From positions 1 to 40,708 of the forward strand of contig MPDF01000015.1 of the NCBI GenBank assembly GCA_001874365.1: a DNA stretch of 40,708 nucleotides, written 5' to 3'. Position numbers and translations under genes: made by a program. The notes beneath the pieces were generated by a model, which saw nothing but the letters and a program-made list of their open reading frames with translations, was not told the origin of the DNA and did no database searches. This stretch comes from Gammaproteobacteria bacterium MedPE (GTDB lineage Bacteria; Pseudomonadota; Gammaproteobacteria; Enterobacterales; Psychrobiaceae). Shown piece by piece: positions 17,979 through 36,114 of the stretch. Positions within the stretch are counted from its first letter, which is position 1, and each line of letters starts with the position of its first letter.

Positions 17979-19001
17979 TTGAATGATCTACTGAGTCAAG
18001 ACGAAATTGATGCGTTGTTACACGGTGTGGATGACGTTGAAGAAGAAGAAGTCGAAGGTGGCGCTGGTGATAGTGCCGCTGAATACGACTTCTCTTCTCA
18101 AGATCGTATTGTTCGTGGTCGAATGCCCACTCTTGAAATGGTTAATGAACGTTTTGCTCGCCATTTGCGAATTAGCTTGTTTAACTTAATGCGCCGAACT
18201 ACTGAGGTTTCTATCAATGGCGTACAAATGCTCAAGTTTGGTGAATATATTCATACGCTGTTCGTTCCAACCAGTTTAAACATGGTTCGTTTTAGGCCTC
18301 TAAAAGGTACCGCATTAATTACCCTTGAAGCACGTTTAGTTTTTATTTTAGTCGATAACTTTTTTGGCGGTGATGGTCGTTACCCTGCCAAAATCGAGGG
18401 ACGTGAATTTACGCCAACAGAACGTCGAATTATTCAATTATTGTTAAAAATTGTTTTTGAAGATTACATGGAAGCTTGGGCACCAGTGATGGATGTTGAG
18501 TTTGAATATTTAGATTCTGAAGTGAATCCATCAATGGCTAACATTGTGAGTCCAACGGAAGTTATTGTTGTATGTTCTTTTCACATTGAACTCGATGGCG
18601 GTGGTGGCGATTTTCATATTGCATTGCCATATTCAATGCTTGAACCTATTAGAGAACTGTTAGATGCCGGTGTTCAGTCTGATAAAGAAGATACTGACCA
18701 ACGCTGGAGTGCGGCCTTAAAAGACGAGATAATGGATGTTGAAGTCGAGCTAGAAGTTGGGCTTGGTGACGTTGATTTAACATTGCGTAAAATTATGGAA
18801 ATGAAAGAAGGCGATATCATTCCATTTGAAATGCCAGATGAACTTGTTGTAAAAGCTGAGGAGCTTCCATCATTTAGAGGAAAACTCGGACAAGTTAATG
18901 ATAATTATGGTTTGGAAGTAACATCGATTATTCCACGACCTGAATCGCAAAAGTCAGAATTTCAATTACTTCAGCGAAAAATGTCTGAAGAAAAATCGTA
19001 A
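17979..19001 (+). CDS. fliM: Flagellar motor switch protein FliM
   Basis: FliM is the C-ring subunit that receives phosphorylated CheY. A TTG start is chosen: AGGTGG lies upstream, and the protein then opens with the invariant FliM N-terminus LLSQDEIDALLHGVDD, the CheY-binding peptide. The 340-residue length is normal. The middle domain (about 45-235) holds GRMPTLEMVNERFARHLR and the FliG-contact segment around GGDGRYPAKIEGREFT. The C-terminal FliN-like domain (about 250-325) includes DVEVELEVGLGDVDLTLRK. It is 14 nt from fliN. Confidence 0.96.
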   Translation: MNDLLSQDEIDALLHGVDDVEEEEVEGGAGDSAAEYDFSSQDRIVRGRMPTLEMVNERFARHLRISLFNLMRRTTEVSINGVQMLKFGEYIHTLFVPTSLNMVRFRPLKGTALITLEARLVFILVDNFFGGDGRYPAKIEGREFTPTERRIIQLLLKIVFEDYMEAWAPVMDVEFEYLDSEVNPSMANIVSPTEVIVVCSFHIELDGGGGDFHIALPYSMLEPIRELLDAGVQSDKEDTDQRWSAALKDEIMDVEVELEVGLGDVDLTLRKIMEMKEGDIIPFEMPDELVVKAEELPSFRGKLGQVNDNYGLEVTSIIPRPESQKSEFQLLQRKMSEEKS

Positions 19002-28227: not shown

Positions 28228-28261
28228 TTGCAGCTTAGCAATGTAACATTTGGAGAATATT

Positions 28262-28648
28262 TTGGATAAAAATATGAAAATTCTTGTTGTTGATGATTTC
28301 TCAACAATGAGACGAATCATCAAGAATCTTTTAAGAGATTTAGGATTAACCAATACGCAGGAAGCTGATGATGGGCAAACTGCTTTGCCAATGCTTAAAG
28401 AAGGTGACTTTGATTTCGTAGTCACCGATTGGAACATGCCTGGTATGCAAGGTATCGATCTACTAAAGCATATTCGTGCAGACGAGAATCTTAAGCATCT
28501 ACCAGTATTAATGGTAACAGCAGAAGCTAAACGTGAACAAATTATCGCTGCCGCACAGGCTGGCGTAAACGGTTACATCGTTAAGCCATTTACAGCTGGA
28601 ACGCTTAAAGAAAAACTTGATAAGATTTTTCAGCGTATTGAATCTTAA
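28262..28648 (+). CDS. cheY: Chemotaxis response regulator CheY
   Basis: Phosphorylated CheY leaves the receptor array and binds FliM to change motor rotation. I chose the TTG at 28262, six nt after GGAG, giving [20 protein letters not shown], which matches the start known in related Alteromonadales. An earlier TTG at 28250 overlaps that ribosome site. The 128-residue protein is a lone receiver domain: acidic pocket Asp11/Asp12, phospho-acceptor Asp56 in [12 protein letters not shown], Thr86 in VTAEA, and Lys108 in IVKPF. It is followed by cheZ after 21 nt. Confidence 0.95.
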
Positions 28649-28669: not shown

Positions 28670-29407
28670 ATGACTAATAATGAGACGGCTCACATCTCGT
28701 TAGAACAAGCTCGTGAATTGGTTAGTGCTCTTGAACAAAATGATATAGCTCAGGCTAATCAAATTGTTGAGGCGGCGAGCCAAAGAATTGAACATGAGCT
28801 GTTTGAAGGTGTTGGTAAACTTACCAGACAGTTTCATAATTCGTTCACAGAAATGAGTATGGACGAAAAATTTTCTTCAATGGTTAATTTGTCAATTCCC
28901 GATGCGAAAGAGCGTTTGGAGTATGTTGTTACCATGACAGCAGAAGCGGCCGATAAGACAATGGACGCCGTAGATGAATGTATTCCTCTGGCACAGAAGC
29001 ACCAAGAAACGGTTAGAGATATTATTCCATCGTGGGAGCGGTTAAAAGATTGCAAAATAAAGGTTGGTGAGTTTAAACAACTTCGCGATAAGTTAGATGC
29101 CTATTTTGCTGAATCTGTAACAGATGCTGAAGAACTTAATGTCAAACTAAATGATATTATTCTCGCTCAAGGCTACCAGGATTTAACCGGCCAAGTTCTA
29201 CAGAAAATTTCTGAAATGGTCAAAAATGTAGAAGAAGATTTAATTAACCTTCTTAGACTATTTGGTCAACACGAGAAAAAGGAATCTGTAGAAAAAGTTG
29301 ATAACTGCATTGAAGCAGATGGCCCGATGGTTCCTGCAAATAAACAACATGATGTAGTGTCAGGTCAAGATGATGTTGATGATCTACTATCAAGTTTAGG
29401 TTTTTAA
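28670..29407 (+). CDS. cheZ: CheY phosphatase CheZ
   Basis: CheZ dephosphorylates CheY and shortens the motor signal. The 245-residue protein is mostly helical, forming the long hairpin of the dimer. The catalytic segment is ILAQGYQDLTGQVLQKI (about 163-179), where the Gln/Asp pair of the family sits. A flexible linker (about 200-232) leads to the CheY-docking tail QDDVDDLLSSLGF. A GGAAG site precedes the ATG. It lies between cheY and cheA as in other polar systems. Confidence 0.96.
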   Translation: MTNNETAHISLEQARELVSALEQNDIAQANQIVEAASQRIEHELFEGVGKLTRQFHNSFTEMSMDEKFSSMVNLSIPDAKERLEYVVTMTAEAADKTMDAVDECIPLAQKHQETVRDIIPSWERLKDCKIKVGEFKQLRDKLDAYFAESVTDAEELNVKLNDIILAQGYQDLTGQVLQKISEMVKNVEEDLINLLRLFGQHEKKESVEKVDNCIEADGPMVPANKQHDVVSGQDDVDDLLSSLGF

Positions 29408-29421
29408 AAGGATTGTAAGCT

Positions 29422-31629
29422 ATGTCGTTTGATGTTGATGAAGATATACTCCAGGATTTTTTAATTGAAGCTGGTGAAATATTAGAGCTACTCCAAGAGC
29501 AGCTGGTTGAATTAGAGAATAATCCTGATGACGCCGATTTATTAAATGCAATTTTCCGTGGGTTTCACACCATTAAAGGTGGTGCTGGGTTCATGGGATT
29601 AAAAGAGCTAGTTGATGTCTGTCACGGTGCTGAAAATATATTTGATTTATTGCGGACTAATCAACGTTCTGTGACACCAGAACTGATGGATGTCATTCTA
29701 GAAGGCTTAGATACCGTCAACGACATGTTTCAATTGGTTCAAGCGAGAGAGCCTCTCATTCCAGCAGAGCCTCGATTACTTGAAGAGCTTGCTCGCCTAA
29801 GTCAGCCAGAAGGCGCTAGTGCACCTGAGCCTGAACCAGAGCCTGAACCCGAACCGGAGCCAGAGCCCGAAGTTACAACTAGCGGTAGTGACGATGAAAT
29901 TACGGATGAGGAGTTTGAAGCCTTATTAGATGACTTACATGGGGCTAATGGCAGTGTTACAGCTGAAAGCCCTACTAGTACTCCTGCTACGGCGAGTGAT
30001 AGCGATGATATTACTGATGACGAATTTGAAGCGTTATTAGATGAGTTGCATGGTGCGAAAGGACAGCCTAAAGCACCGAGCGTTGCTGTCAGCGCATCAG
30101 ATGAAATCACTGATGATGAGTTCGAAGCCTTTTTAGATGAATTACATGGTAAAAAAGGTGCCCCTTCGCCAGTTGAAAGTGCAGTGTCAAAAGCGAGTGA
30201 GCCGACAAAGTCTACCCCTGAATCTGACGAGATTGATGATGCTGAATTTGAAGCATTGTTAGATGAGTTACAGGCGGCAAAAAATACTAATTCAAGTAAT
30301 GAGTCAGCCGCCAAGGTTGAAGCTAAAGCGACTAAAGCATCACCTGTAAAAGATAAAACAGAAGCGCCTAAACCAGCACCTAAGAAAGTGGCATCTGTGC
30401 CAGCTAAAGCAAACGACGCCAACAAATCTAGCGCAGCGTCGAAGAAGGCTGCTACACCGGCTCCTCAAGCTGAAACGACTGTTCGTGTCGATACGGCGCG
30501 TCTCGATGATATTATGAATATGGTTGGCGAGTTGGTGTTAGTTCGTAATCGATTAGTGAGTCTTGGACTGACTAGCGGTGACGAAGAAATGTCTAAGGCG
30601 GTTGCTAATTTAGATAATGTGACTGCTGATCTGCAAGGTTCAGTAATGAAAACGCGGATGCAGCCAATTAAGAAAGTGTTTGGCCGATTTCCTCGTGTTG
30701 TTCGTGACATGGCACGAAGTCTGAAAAAAGACATAACATTAACGATGGAAGGTGAAGATACCGATCTCGATAAGAACTTGGTTGAAGCATTAGCCGATCC
30801 GTTAGTGCATTTAGTGCGTAACTCAGTAGATCATGGTATTGAAATGCCAGATGCTCGAGAAGCAGCAGGCAAACCTCGCACCGGTACTGTTATTTTATCT
30901 GCATCGCAAGAAGGCGATCACATCCTGTTATCGATTAAAGATGATGGCGCTGGCATGGACGCAGATAAACTCAAAAGCATTGCAATTTCTCGTGGCGTAC
31001 TCGACGAAGAAAGTGCAGCTCGAATGAGTGATGAAGATGCTTATGAATTAATTTTTGCTCCTGGCTTTTCAACTAAGACTGAAATATCAGATATTTCAGG
31101 TCGTGGTGTGGGCATGGATGTGGTTAAAACGAAGATCACACAACTAAACGGTACGGTAAAAATTTCGTCTGAAAAAGGCGTTGGTACTGTGTTGAAGATC
31201 ACTGTTCCGTTAACGCTAGCGATTATGCCAACGTTAATGGTTCAACTCGGTCAGCAAATTTTCGCATTGCCACTTGCCGCTGTTAATGAAATATTTAATC
31301 TTGATTTAACAAAAACAAATATCGTCGATGGACGTAAAACAATTTCAGTGCGTAATCGCGCCATTCCTTTATTCTATTTAGATGAATGGCTCAGTAAGGA
31401 TTACATTCCAGGTAAAGATCGTACTGAAGGTCATGTTGTTATCGTACAAATAGGCCCGCAAACAGTAGGCTTTGTTGTCGATGGACTAATTGGTCAAGAA
31501 GAAGTTGTTATTAAGCCATTAGGCGCATTATTACACGGTACACCAGGCATATCTGGAGCAACTATTACCAGTGATGGTAGCATTGCATTGATTGTCGATA
31601 TTGGAAACTTACTTAAGCGATATGCTTAA
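29422..31629 (+). CDS. cheA: Chemotaxis histidine kinase CheA
   Basis: CheA couples receptors to CheY and CheB by phosphotransfer. The 735-residue protein has the Hpt domain P1 (about 1-125) with phosphorylated His49 in FRGFHTIKGGAGFMG. A Pro-Glu repeat (136-150) follows. Four acidic repeats of the type ITDDEFEALLDELHG begin near 160, 197, 229 and 271. A Lys/Ala/Pro-rich linker runs to about 350. Dimerisation P3 begins at VDTARLDDIMNMVGELVLVR. The ATPase P4 has HLVRNSVDHGIE and GRGVGMDVVK, and the CheW-like P5 ends near LLKRYA. No folded P2 domain is visible; the repeats occupy its place and may match the region called LID in Vibrio CheA, used for polar localisation with ParC/ParP. Confidence 0.95.
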   Translation: MSFDVDEDILQDFLIEAGEILELLQEQLVELENNPDDADLLNAIFRGFHTIKGGAGFMGLKELVDVCHGAENIFDLLRTNQRSVTPELMDVILEGLDTVNDMFQLVQAREPLIPAEPRLLEELARLSQPEGASAPEPEPEPEPEPEPEPEVTTSGSDDEITDEEFEALLDDLHGANGSVTAESPTSTPATASDSDDITDDEFEALLDELHGAKGQPKAPSVAVSASDEITDDEFEAFLDELHGKKGAPSPVESAVSKASEPTKSTPESDEIDDAEFEALLDELQAAKNTNSSNESAAKVEAKATKASPVKDKTEAPKPAPKKVASVPAKANDANKSSAASKKAATPAPQAETTVRVDTARLDDIMNMVGELVLVRNRLVSLGLTSGDEEMSKAVANLDNVTADLQGSVMKTRMQPIKKVFGRFPRVVRDMARSLKKDITLTMEGEDTDLDKNLVEALADPLVHLVRNSVDHGIEMPDAREAAGKPRTGTVILSASQEGDHILLSIKDDGAGMDADKLKSIAISRGVLDEESAARMSDEDAYELIFAPGFSTKTEISDISGRGVGMDVVKTKITQLNGTVKISSEKGVGTVLKITVPLTLAIMPTLMVQLGQQIFALPLAAVNEIFNLDLTKTNIVDGRKTISVRNRAIPLFYLDEWLSKDYIPGKDRTEGHVVIVQIGPQTVGFVVDGLIGQEEVVIKPLGALLHGTPGISGATITSDGSIALIVDIGNLLKRYA
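29890..30282 (+). repeat. Four FliM-like acidic repeats inside cheA
   Basis: Residues 157-287 of CheA contain four copies of a motif around DDEFEALLDELHG, at residues about 157-177, 195-214, 227-246 and 269-287 (spacing 37, 32 and 42). The last copy is the most diverged (DDAEFEALLDELQAAK). The core DEFEALL resembles DEIDALL of the FliM CheY-binding peptide and the CheZ tail DDVDDLLSSLGF. Confidence 0.85.
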
Positions 31630-34524: not shown

Positions 34525-35295
34525 GTGAAAGTTTGGAGTATTGCGAATCAAAAAGGTGGCGTAGGTAAAACAACGACAGCGCTTACATTAGCCGGTATAT
34601 TGGCACGCCGAAAAAAGCGTGTGCTATTGGTTGATATTGATCCCCACTCATCAATGGGCTTTTCGTTAGGGGTTGATTGTGATGAATTGGAATATTCACT
34701 TTACGATTTATTTACGTGCCCCGATAAATTTATTGATCGGCTAACGCAGCGGGTGATTCAAAAAACAAATGTTGATGAAATAGATTTAGTTCCATCATCA
34801 ATGGCATTGGCGACGTTAGATCGAGAGTTAGGCCATAAAGAAGGCATGGGGCTCATTCTTAAACGTATTTTAGCGGGGGTTGCAGATAATTATGACCATG
34901 TGATTGTCGATTGTTCACCTGTGTTAGGTGTTTTAATGGTAAATGCTTTAGCCTGTAGTAGTAAAGTTATTGTGCCAGTGCAAACAGAATACTTAGCATT
35001 TAAAGGGTTAGAGCGTATGGTGAAAACCTTGCTTATTATGCAACGCTCGAATAAAACACCGTATAATTATTTGATTGTTCCTACGATGTTTGACCGCCGA
35101 ACAAAAGCCAGTTTACAGTCTTTAGATACGATGAAAGAGACATTCGAACATCGAGTCTGGGATAAAGTTATTCCTGTGGATACGAAATTTAGAGATGCGA
35201 GTGAGCGTCATTTACCATTGCCACAATTTGCGCCACGAAGTCGCGGTGTTGTTGCATATGGATTGTTATTAGACTCACTTTTAGAAGAAGATTAA
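34525..35295 (+). CDS. parC: ParA-family ATPase for chemotaxis array placement (Vibrio ParC type)
   Basis: In Vibrio the matching protein, named ParC, positions chemotaxis arrays at the cell pole; it is unrelated to topoisomerase IV ParC. The 256-residue protein begins [20 protein letters not shown], with the deviant Walker A at about 10-17. It continues with [16 protein letters not shown] and [21 protein letters not shown] start follows AGGAG, only 3 nt after motD. No ParB gene is nearby, as expected for a protein-positioning ParA rather than a plasmid or chromosome partition system. It lies next to the CheW-like ParP gene, its known partner. Confidence 0.9.
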
Positions 35296-35310: not shown

Positions 35311-36114
35311 TTGGACGAAAAAAAATTAATGGAAAGCCGCTCCTCTCGAGCTGTCAAAGACTTTTTTGATGTGCTACTCGACGAGCCTAAAAATAACACT
35401 ATTGAATCTCAACCACTGGCTAAGTTGTTAGAGAAAGTAGGGGATGTTGCACCGCAAGTCGATGTTGCTCCTGAGTTGATCGATCCCTCGTTATTAAATG
35501 AGCCAGAATCAACTATAGATAAGGTTGAAAAGCCACAAAAAGTTACACAACGCGATGTTGAACCTATTATTGAAGAAGTTGTTGAGCCAACAACTCCTGA
35601 CGTTGAGGTTGCACCAGAACAAGCAGCAATCCCTGCGACAGGTCCGTTACAGGTTAATACATCAATGAGTGATCTGGAAGAAGGTTTTCCGGCACTATTT
35701 TTTGAAGTGATGGGGCAAACTTTTTCAGTGCCTTTGGTAAAGCTTAAAGGTATTTATCGAAGAAAATCGCTGACCAAGTTAATTGGCAAGCCTAATTGGT
35801 TTAGTGGTGTACAAATAGAACGTGACGAACAGCTTAATGTCATCGATACGGCACGTTATCTAATGCCTGAAAAATATGGGGCGTCACTAGAATATTCGCC
35901 AAATTATCAGTATATTATTGTTATAGGTGATAGTAATTGGGGCTTAGAGTGTAATAGACTTATTGATAGCACCACATTATCGCACGATGAAATAAAATGG
36001 CGAACCGATGTGACTCGAAGTCCATGGCTCGCAGGAACAGTTAAACACCGGATGTGTGGCTTGTTAGCCGTCGATGCCTTAATCGAATTATTTGAAAGCA
36101 ATGAGACGAAGTAA
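35311..36114 (+). CDS. parP: CheW-domain protein ParP, array polar tether
   Basis: ParP links ParC to CheA and keeps arrays at the pole in Vibrio. The 267-residue protein has an N-terminal motif SSRAVKDFFDVLLDEP (about 9-24), a disordered Pro/Glu/Val-rich linker (about 30-120), and a C-terminal CheW-like domain (about 125-262) with LFFEVMGQTFSVPLVKLKGI, NWFSGVQIERDEQLNVIDTA and RSPWLAGTVKHRMCGLLAVD. The start is uncertain: the TTG at 35311 has only a weak GGTAA upstream, and an ATG at 35329 has no clear ribosome site. Its order between parC and cheW matches other polar clusters. Confidence 0.85.
   Translation: MDEKKLMESRSSRAVKDFFDVLLDEPKNNTIESQPLAKLLEKVGDVAPQVDVAPELIDPSLLNEPESTIDKVEKPQKVTQRDVEPIIEEVVEPTTPDVEVAPEQAAIPATGPLQVNTSMSDLEEGFPALFFEVMGQTFSVPLVKLKGIYRRKSLTKLIGKPNWFSGVQIERDEQLNVIDTARYLMPEKYGASLEYSPNYQYIIVIGDSNWGLECNRLIDSTTLSHDEIKWRTDVTRSPWLAGTVKHRMCGLLAVDALIELFESNETK

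Follow-up and report, generated by a model that had tools for sequence, protein, structure and literature searches.

Results

Gene content of the locus

The window, by which we mean the whole 40,708-nucleotide stretch of DNA analysed here, carries the gene order fliA-cheY-cheZ-cheA-cheB-motA-motB-parC-parP-cheW, read from its open reading frames and Pfam matches and shared with relatives, which is the order of an F6-type polar flagellar che cluster. The class name F6 for such clusters is taken from the literature rather than computed here (PMC7184735, PMC7534058). The cheA product has the domains of a CheA histidine kinase (PF01627, PF02895, PF02518 and PF01584, in that order and all above cut-off). 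The positions given by the first-pass annotation for fliM (17979-19001), for the FliM N-terminus and for the CheZ tail are correct. The features used below are the following.

17991-18020, forward strand: FliM N-terminal peptide LSQDEIDALL, residues 5-14, an established CheY-binding motif similar to the repeats
28250-28648, forward strand: cheY (Pfam PF00072), candidate ligand
29363-29404, forward strand: CheZ C-terminal peptide GQDDVDDLLSSLGF, located by sequence comparison
29422-31629, forward strand: cheA, 735 amino acids, Hpt/P1, repeat linker, P3, P4, P5
29443-29718, forward strand: P1 (Hpt), residues 8-99 (Pfam PF01627, E 2.1e-18)
29824-30495, forward strand: P1-P3 linker, residues 135-358, AlphaFold2 pLDDT mostly below 50 outside four short helices
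29899-29943, forward strand: repeat 1 core ITDEEFEALLDDLHG, residues 160-174, predicted helix 162-172
30010-30054, forward strand: repeat 2 core ITDDEFEALLDELHG, residues 197-211, predicted helix 199-209
30106-30150, forward strand: repeat 3 core ITDDEFEAFLDELHG, residues 229-243, predicted helix 231-241
30232-30276, forward strand: repeat 4 core IDDAEFEALLDELQA, residues 271-285, predicted helix 273-287
30475-31620, forward strand: P3, P4 and P5, residues 352-411, 459-598 and 605-733 (Pfam PF02895, PF02518, PF01584)
34525-35295, forward strand: parC-like ATPase gene (PF13614; synteny with ParC loci)
35311-36114, forward strand: parP, with a CheW-like C-terminus (PF01584; family alignment), rival ligand

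Four repeats in a linker without a folded P2

The first-pass annotation placed four repeats at residues 157-287 of CheA, and both a repeat search and a profile bear this out. The repeat search returns four 60-nt copies in cheA (29892-29951, 30003-30062, 30099-30158 and 30225-30284), which share 70-100% identity with the first copy and are spaced by 111, 96 and 126 nt, the fourth being the most diverged and missing from most relatives, which carry three. Because synonymous differences among the copies (0.48-0.86 per site) far exceed nonsynonymous ones (0.03-0.19), the copies are old and under purifying selection. A profile of the repeat unit recovers the CheA copies of this genome at E values of 1.9e-12 to 7.4e-9, and outside CheA the same genome-wide search at E≤10 yields only noise. 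A search of the PDB with the repeat found no relative.

The absence of a visible P2 domain, also claimed at first pass, agrees with the structure prediction. In an AlphaFold2 model of CheA built with 41 CheA sequences, P1 is confident and residues 135-358 are mostly below pLDDT 50; the only structure in the linker is four isolated helices of 11-15 residues, one per repeat, and nothing resembling a folded P2 appears within residues 150-350. The window CheA has no Pfam match to P2, and the 240-residue linker finds no relative in the PDB. By Pfam, PDB and AlphaFold2 the protein thus departs from the canonical five-domain CheA, which has a folded P2 between P1 and P3, and its linker is, as modelled, without a folded domain in the P2 slot. 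Pfam is a weak witness on this point, since it also misses the P2-like segment that we see by eye in the genome's second CheA (L006/L262), and a Pfam survey of P2 across the class is uninformative, PF09078 matching just 1 of 229 genomes and missing P2-like segments.

Resemblance to the CheY-binding peptides of FliM and CheZ

The likeness of the repeats to the CheY-binding N-terminus of FliM, noted at first pass, is well supported by sequence comparison. Scored with BLOSUM62 without gaps, the core ITDDEFEALL aligns to LSQDEIDALL of FliM with a score of 28, FliM being the best of the 26 other window proteins, with the match at residue 5; that score is reached by 0.3% of 2078 ORFs and by none of 1622 N-termini. 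The core therefore fits the FliM-type pattern L-S-Q-x-E-I-D-x-L-L better than 99.7% of ORFs, in the right register and with conservative substitutions. Under a strict 15-column profile FliM is the third-ranking window protein, aligned in register at its N-terminus. FliM N-termini in the host's order read LSQDEIDALLHGVDD, and CheZ tails [GSDN]QD[DE]VDDLLSSLGF.

The CheZ tail, a known ligand of CheY, shares with the repeats the register and an LL followed by xxL, and differs in lying at the carboxy terminus of its protein and in scoring lower. The resemblance claimed for it is present but modest: its scores against the 12-residue core TDDEFEALLDEL are equalled by 1-5% of random C-termini, and the tail was not found in the strict 15-column profile search.

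FliM contacts CheY through L6, Q8, I11, D12, L14, L15 and residue 16 (PMC3774744 Table 3), which map, by alignment rather than structure, to I(-4), D(-2), F(+1), E(+2), L(+4), L(+5) and D(+6) of the repeat. The modal residues at these positions account for 85, 71, 100, 94, 93, 99 and 100% of cases, and the most variable position is +3, where the modal residue reaches 36% and which corresponds to the non-contact A13 of FliM. E(0) is conserved although it has no counterpart among the listed FliM contacts, so that contact and conservation appear to match well but not perfectly. The repeats and the FliM peptide thus share a gapless 10-residue core, with L6/I11/L14/L15 corresponding to I/F/L/L and the acidic D12 to E, and a predicted short helix; the repeats differ in lying within CheA, in being multicopy, in having F for I and an extra DELHG, and in that their CheY binding is putative.

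A 10-residue match is short and calls for caution, as acidic amphipathic helices can arise by chance. The strongest non-CheA profile matches were acidic tails (EDDADFEAFMDELDG) of MlaA/VacJ-like lipoproteins (L134:16069-16854, L137:17948-18802, L170:16002-16832); these proteins are periplasmic, and we dismissed the likeness as chance. The idea that the linker is a plain acidic spacer of helix-forming repeats with no specific partner, which its low complexity and the MlaA tails might suggest, is hardly credible, given single positions fixed throughout the class (F in 100 of 100 units), the strong synonymous excess between copies and the free variation of the rest of the linker.

We also ran AlphaFold2 on a natural read-through fusion (L145) joining CheY, CheZ and CheA 1-302 in one frame, with stops modelled as Ser and 70 rows. 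Its repeats reached pLDDT values of about 75, 65 and 79, like the unbound repeats in the CheA model above, and the CheZ tail, the positive control, was left undocked too at about 50, a failure of the control.

Distribution and conservation of the array

Among Gammaproteobacteria, CheAs of this class generally carry the array. Repeats occur in 90 of the 229 sampled Gammaproteobacteria genomes, and all 40 matches in a phylum sample of 299 genomes fall within Gammaproteobacteria and in no other sampled class. Among 80 named loci, which include Vibrio harveyi, Aliivibrio fischeri, Shewanella, Pseudomonas, Aeromonas and Pseudoalteromonas, 74 have three copies, five have four and one has five, with extremes across the class from one (G208) to about eight (G153). 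Relatives in the host's order carry two to four copies of the pattern [DE]I[TS]DDEFExLLDELHG, and in 100 collected units F(+1) is invariant (100/100) and L(+5) nearly so (98/100). Conservation of repeats 1-3 (0.84-0.90) is comparable to that of P1 (0.85) and P3 (0.86), against 0.48 for the remaining linker.

Two loci are unusual in themselves. In the CheA of G153 (1068 amino acids; L098:2548-5754, reverse strand), a long AAPAKPA low-complexity stretch comes after the roughly eight repeats. On G347:C14 (L101, L110), a deletion between fliA and motA has removed cheY, cheZ, cheB and most of cheA, and the stand-alone repeat ORF there is a 119-amino-acid relic of the deleted che operon with two repeats.

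The array, the LID and ParP

Ringgaard is said to have described and mapped, in 2014, a region of CheA called LID (localization and inheritance domain). In published accounts the LID is a ParP-binding part of CheA that precedes P3 and is confined to species with ParC/ParP (PMC7534058, PMC5706961), and it is placed between P2 and P3 (PMC7534058). An overlap between the repeats and the Vibrio LID had been proposed at first pass and gains support here: in 17 Vibrio/Photobacterium CheAs almost nothing in the linker is conserved except the three repeats and, behind the third, a short GKGPS-EEL-AT stretch. Since the repeats are thus nearly the sole conserved linker sequence in Vibrio, the LID and the array most likely coincide. 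They share the linker of orthologous CheAs and the species range with ParC/ParP, and the repeats, like the LID, lie before P3 and are conserved in ParC/ParP species; they differ from the published LID in that we see no folded P2 and that the repeats, which are probably the LID themselves, also occur without ParP.

This last difference comes from comparing repeats with parP across the class. In the sample of 229 genomes, ParP was found in 72, repeats in 90 and both in 70. The two apparent cases of ParP without repeats were rejected: in G333 cheA is cut by a contig end, and G194 has a weak ParP match in a different chemosensory cluster. Conversely, of the 20 genomes with repeats and no ParP match at first pass, one holds the relic (G347), four have an actual or possible divergent ParP (G239, G277, G278, G332), and 15 of the 90 repeat-bearing genomes have none detectable with the ParP profile. 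Among individual loci, G121 has an otherwise complete operon without parC and parP and carries four repeat copies, G231 and G284 have parC with parP absent at the locus, and G273 and G132 have neither gene there. Core conservation is 0.978 without ParP (13 genomes) versus 0.969 with it (53 genomes).

As the array and an equally conserved core persist without ParP, ParP cannot be the sole ligand. A ligand besides ParP is needed, and the sequence points to CheY; the persistence favours CheY, or another ParP-independent partner, over ParP alone as the constant ligand. In G311, which lacks ParP, ITDDEFEALL is kept exactly in three repeats and the distal DELHG is lost; given how similar these copies are to one another, they may be of recent origin. 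We considered a two-part motif, with a FliM-like half for CheY and a DELHG half for ParP, and dropped it: the apparent loss of DELHG in ParP-less genomes vanished against a fair ParP-bearing class sample (P 0.28).

Discussion

According to the survey by Berry, Andrianova and Zhulin (2023, PMC10782961), more than half of CheA homologs have an unstructured stretch where P2 would be, which raises the question of how such a CheA brings CheY to the kinase. That survey nowhere mentions repeats, Vibrio or disorder motifs in its text. P2-less CheA and the LID are already known; what is apparently new is a FliM-like array as a candidate substitute for P2. We found no description of FliM-like repeats or short linear motifs in CheA in the literature searched, which covered few subscription journals.

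We propose that the repeat array stands in for P2 as a multivalent dock for CheY, and we put the probability of this reading at roughly 0.6. The CheA linker would be a flexible, multivalent docking arm in which each repeat, a short disordered peptide, folds into a helix of two to three turns on the alpha4-beta5-alpha5 face of CheY, in the binding mode of the FliM N-terminus and of the CheZ tail. CheY would be kept near phospho-P1, two to four weak sites raising its local concentration beside P1, and the array could thereby achieve by avidity what a folded P2 does in E. coli. CheB could use the same sites, and in ParP-bearing species the array is probably also the LID region contacted by ParP. 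What the data show directly is the repeats and their conservation, the lack of a folded P2, the match to FliM and the persistence without ParP; that CheY binds, through which face and with what consequence for phosphotransfer is inferred. The array and the P2/CheY-binding domain (PF09078, PF07194) share the slot between P1 and P3 and the same proposed job; they differ in that P2 has an alpha/beta fold and is present once or sometimes twice, and the array is a set of unfolded peptide repeats, usually two to four. In G284 (L237), two CheA genes lie about 5 kb apart, the first with repeats and no P2 and its neighbour with a P2-like segment and no repeats. A FliM-like peptide in the P2 slot suggests a different way of loading CheY.

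Several points weigh against a CheY dock. The FliM match is a short one, and the preference of the FliM peptide for phosphorylated CheY, taken up below, is not what a phosphotransfer dock calls for. Repeats accompany ParP strongly, in 70 of 72 ParP genomes with the remaining two uninformative. Even in E. coli, P2 is dispensable for phosphotransfer (cited in PMC10782961), so that a substitute for it may be unneeded.

The first-pass annotation had left open whether the repeats are the LID, a CheY/CheB dock or both. It is close to an even bet that both ligands are used, the repeats binding CheY for phosphotransfer and ParP for tethering, with copies shared out or competing. All the evidence for a CheY dock would apply, together with the co-occurrence with ParP and the coincidence with the LID (PMC5706961), and multiple copies would permit a division of labour; no copy-specific signature, however, splits a CheY class from a ParP class, the loss of DELHG not being significant. 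More tentative is a broader scenario, in which P2 was swapped, throughout a class of CheA kinases, for a FliM-like CheY-docking array that doubles as LID, tethering and phosphotransfer competing for one set of peptides, and in which the DEGFGFFEP array of a second CheA class, described below, represents a repetition of the swap.

The FliM peptide binds phosphorylated CheY by preference, whereas a dock for phosphotransfer should bind unphosphorylated CheY, so the array could be either a loading dock or a product buffer. That the repeats serve as a local buffer, keeping CheY-P or CheB close to the array, and do not load unphosphorylated CheY is nevertheless unlikely: they lie next to P1, in the slot of P2, and the task expected there is substrate docking. 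A buffer would fit the preference of their nearest relative, and array and motor are reported to occupy the same pole in Pseudomonas (PMC12410967).

Quite improbable is the LID alone, that is, a region that binds the CheW-like AIF domain of ParP and tethers CheA to the pole with no CheY docking. The described restriction of the LID to ParC/ParP species (PMC5706961, PMC7534058), the 70 genomes with both repeats and ParP, the lack of any judgeable genome with ParP and no repeats, and the repeats and GKGPS-EEL-AT tail as about the only conserved linker sequence in Vibrio/Photobacterium all speak for it. It is disfavoured by the 15 repeat-bearing genomes without detectable ParP, at locus level by G121, G231, G284, G273 and G132, and by core conservation undiminished without ParP, and it leaves the match to FliM unexplained.

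Should CheY indeed bind the repeats, then in Vibrio, Pseudomonas, Shewanella and Aeromonas the main kinase of chemotaxis would use the docking peptide of the motor, in several copies. Models of phosphotransfer rate and of competition for CheY-P between array, CheZ and motor would then need revision, as would models of how ParP couples tethering to signalling. The CheYs of F6 and F7 CheAs are distinguished by residues whose positions, in the E. coli complex, lie opposite P1 and P2, CheA-F6 having been read through the E. coli P2 structure (Ortega et al., 2020, PMC7184735); with a peptide array where P2 was assumed, these differences would acquire another reading.

A second CheA class of the host's order, encoded in cheY-cheA-cheW-mcp-cheR-cheD-cheB clusters, is often without P2 and has three to four copies of [DE][DE]G[FY]G[FL]F[ED]P in the P2 slot (L247, L252, L254, L259 and L260, with neighbourhoods L292-L295, and L263). 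Its sisters L246, L251, L253, L255, L258 and L262 have a P2-like segment instead of the motif, and L263 seemingly has both. In these clusters the C-terminus of CheW reads ...SSQELGLFD, and ...GD[VI]ELF closes either CheD or a membrane protein. In the CheA of L261 (G099:C1:1057100-1059800), a receiver domain (STIKILLVEDSKVIQK...) sits between P1 and P3, in the position of P2.
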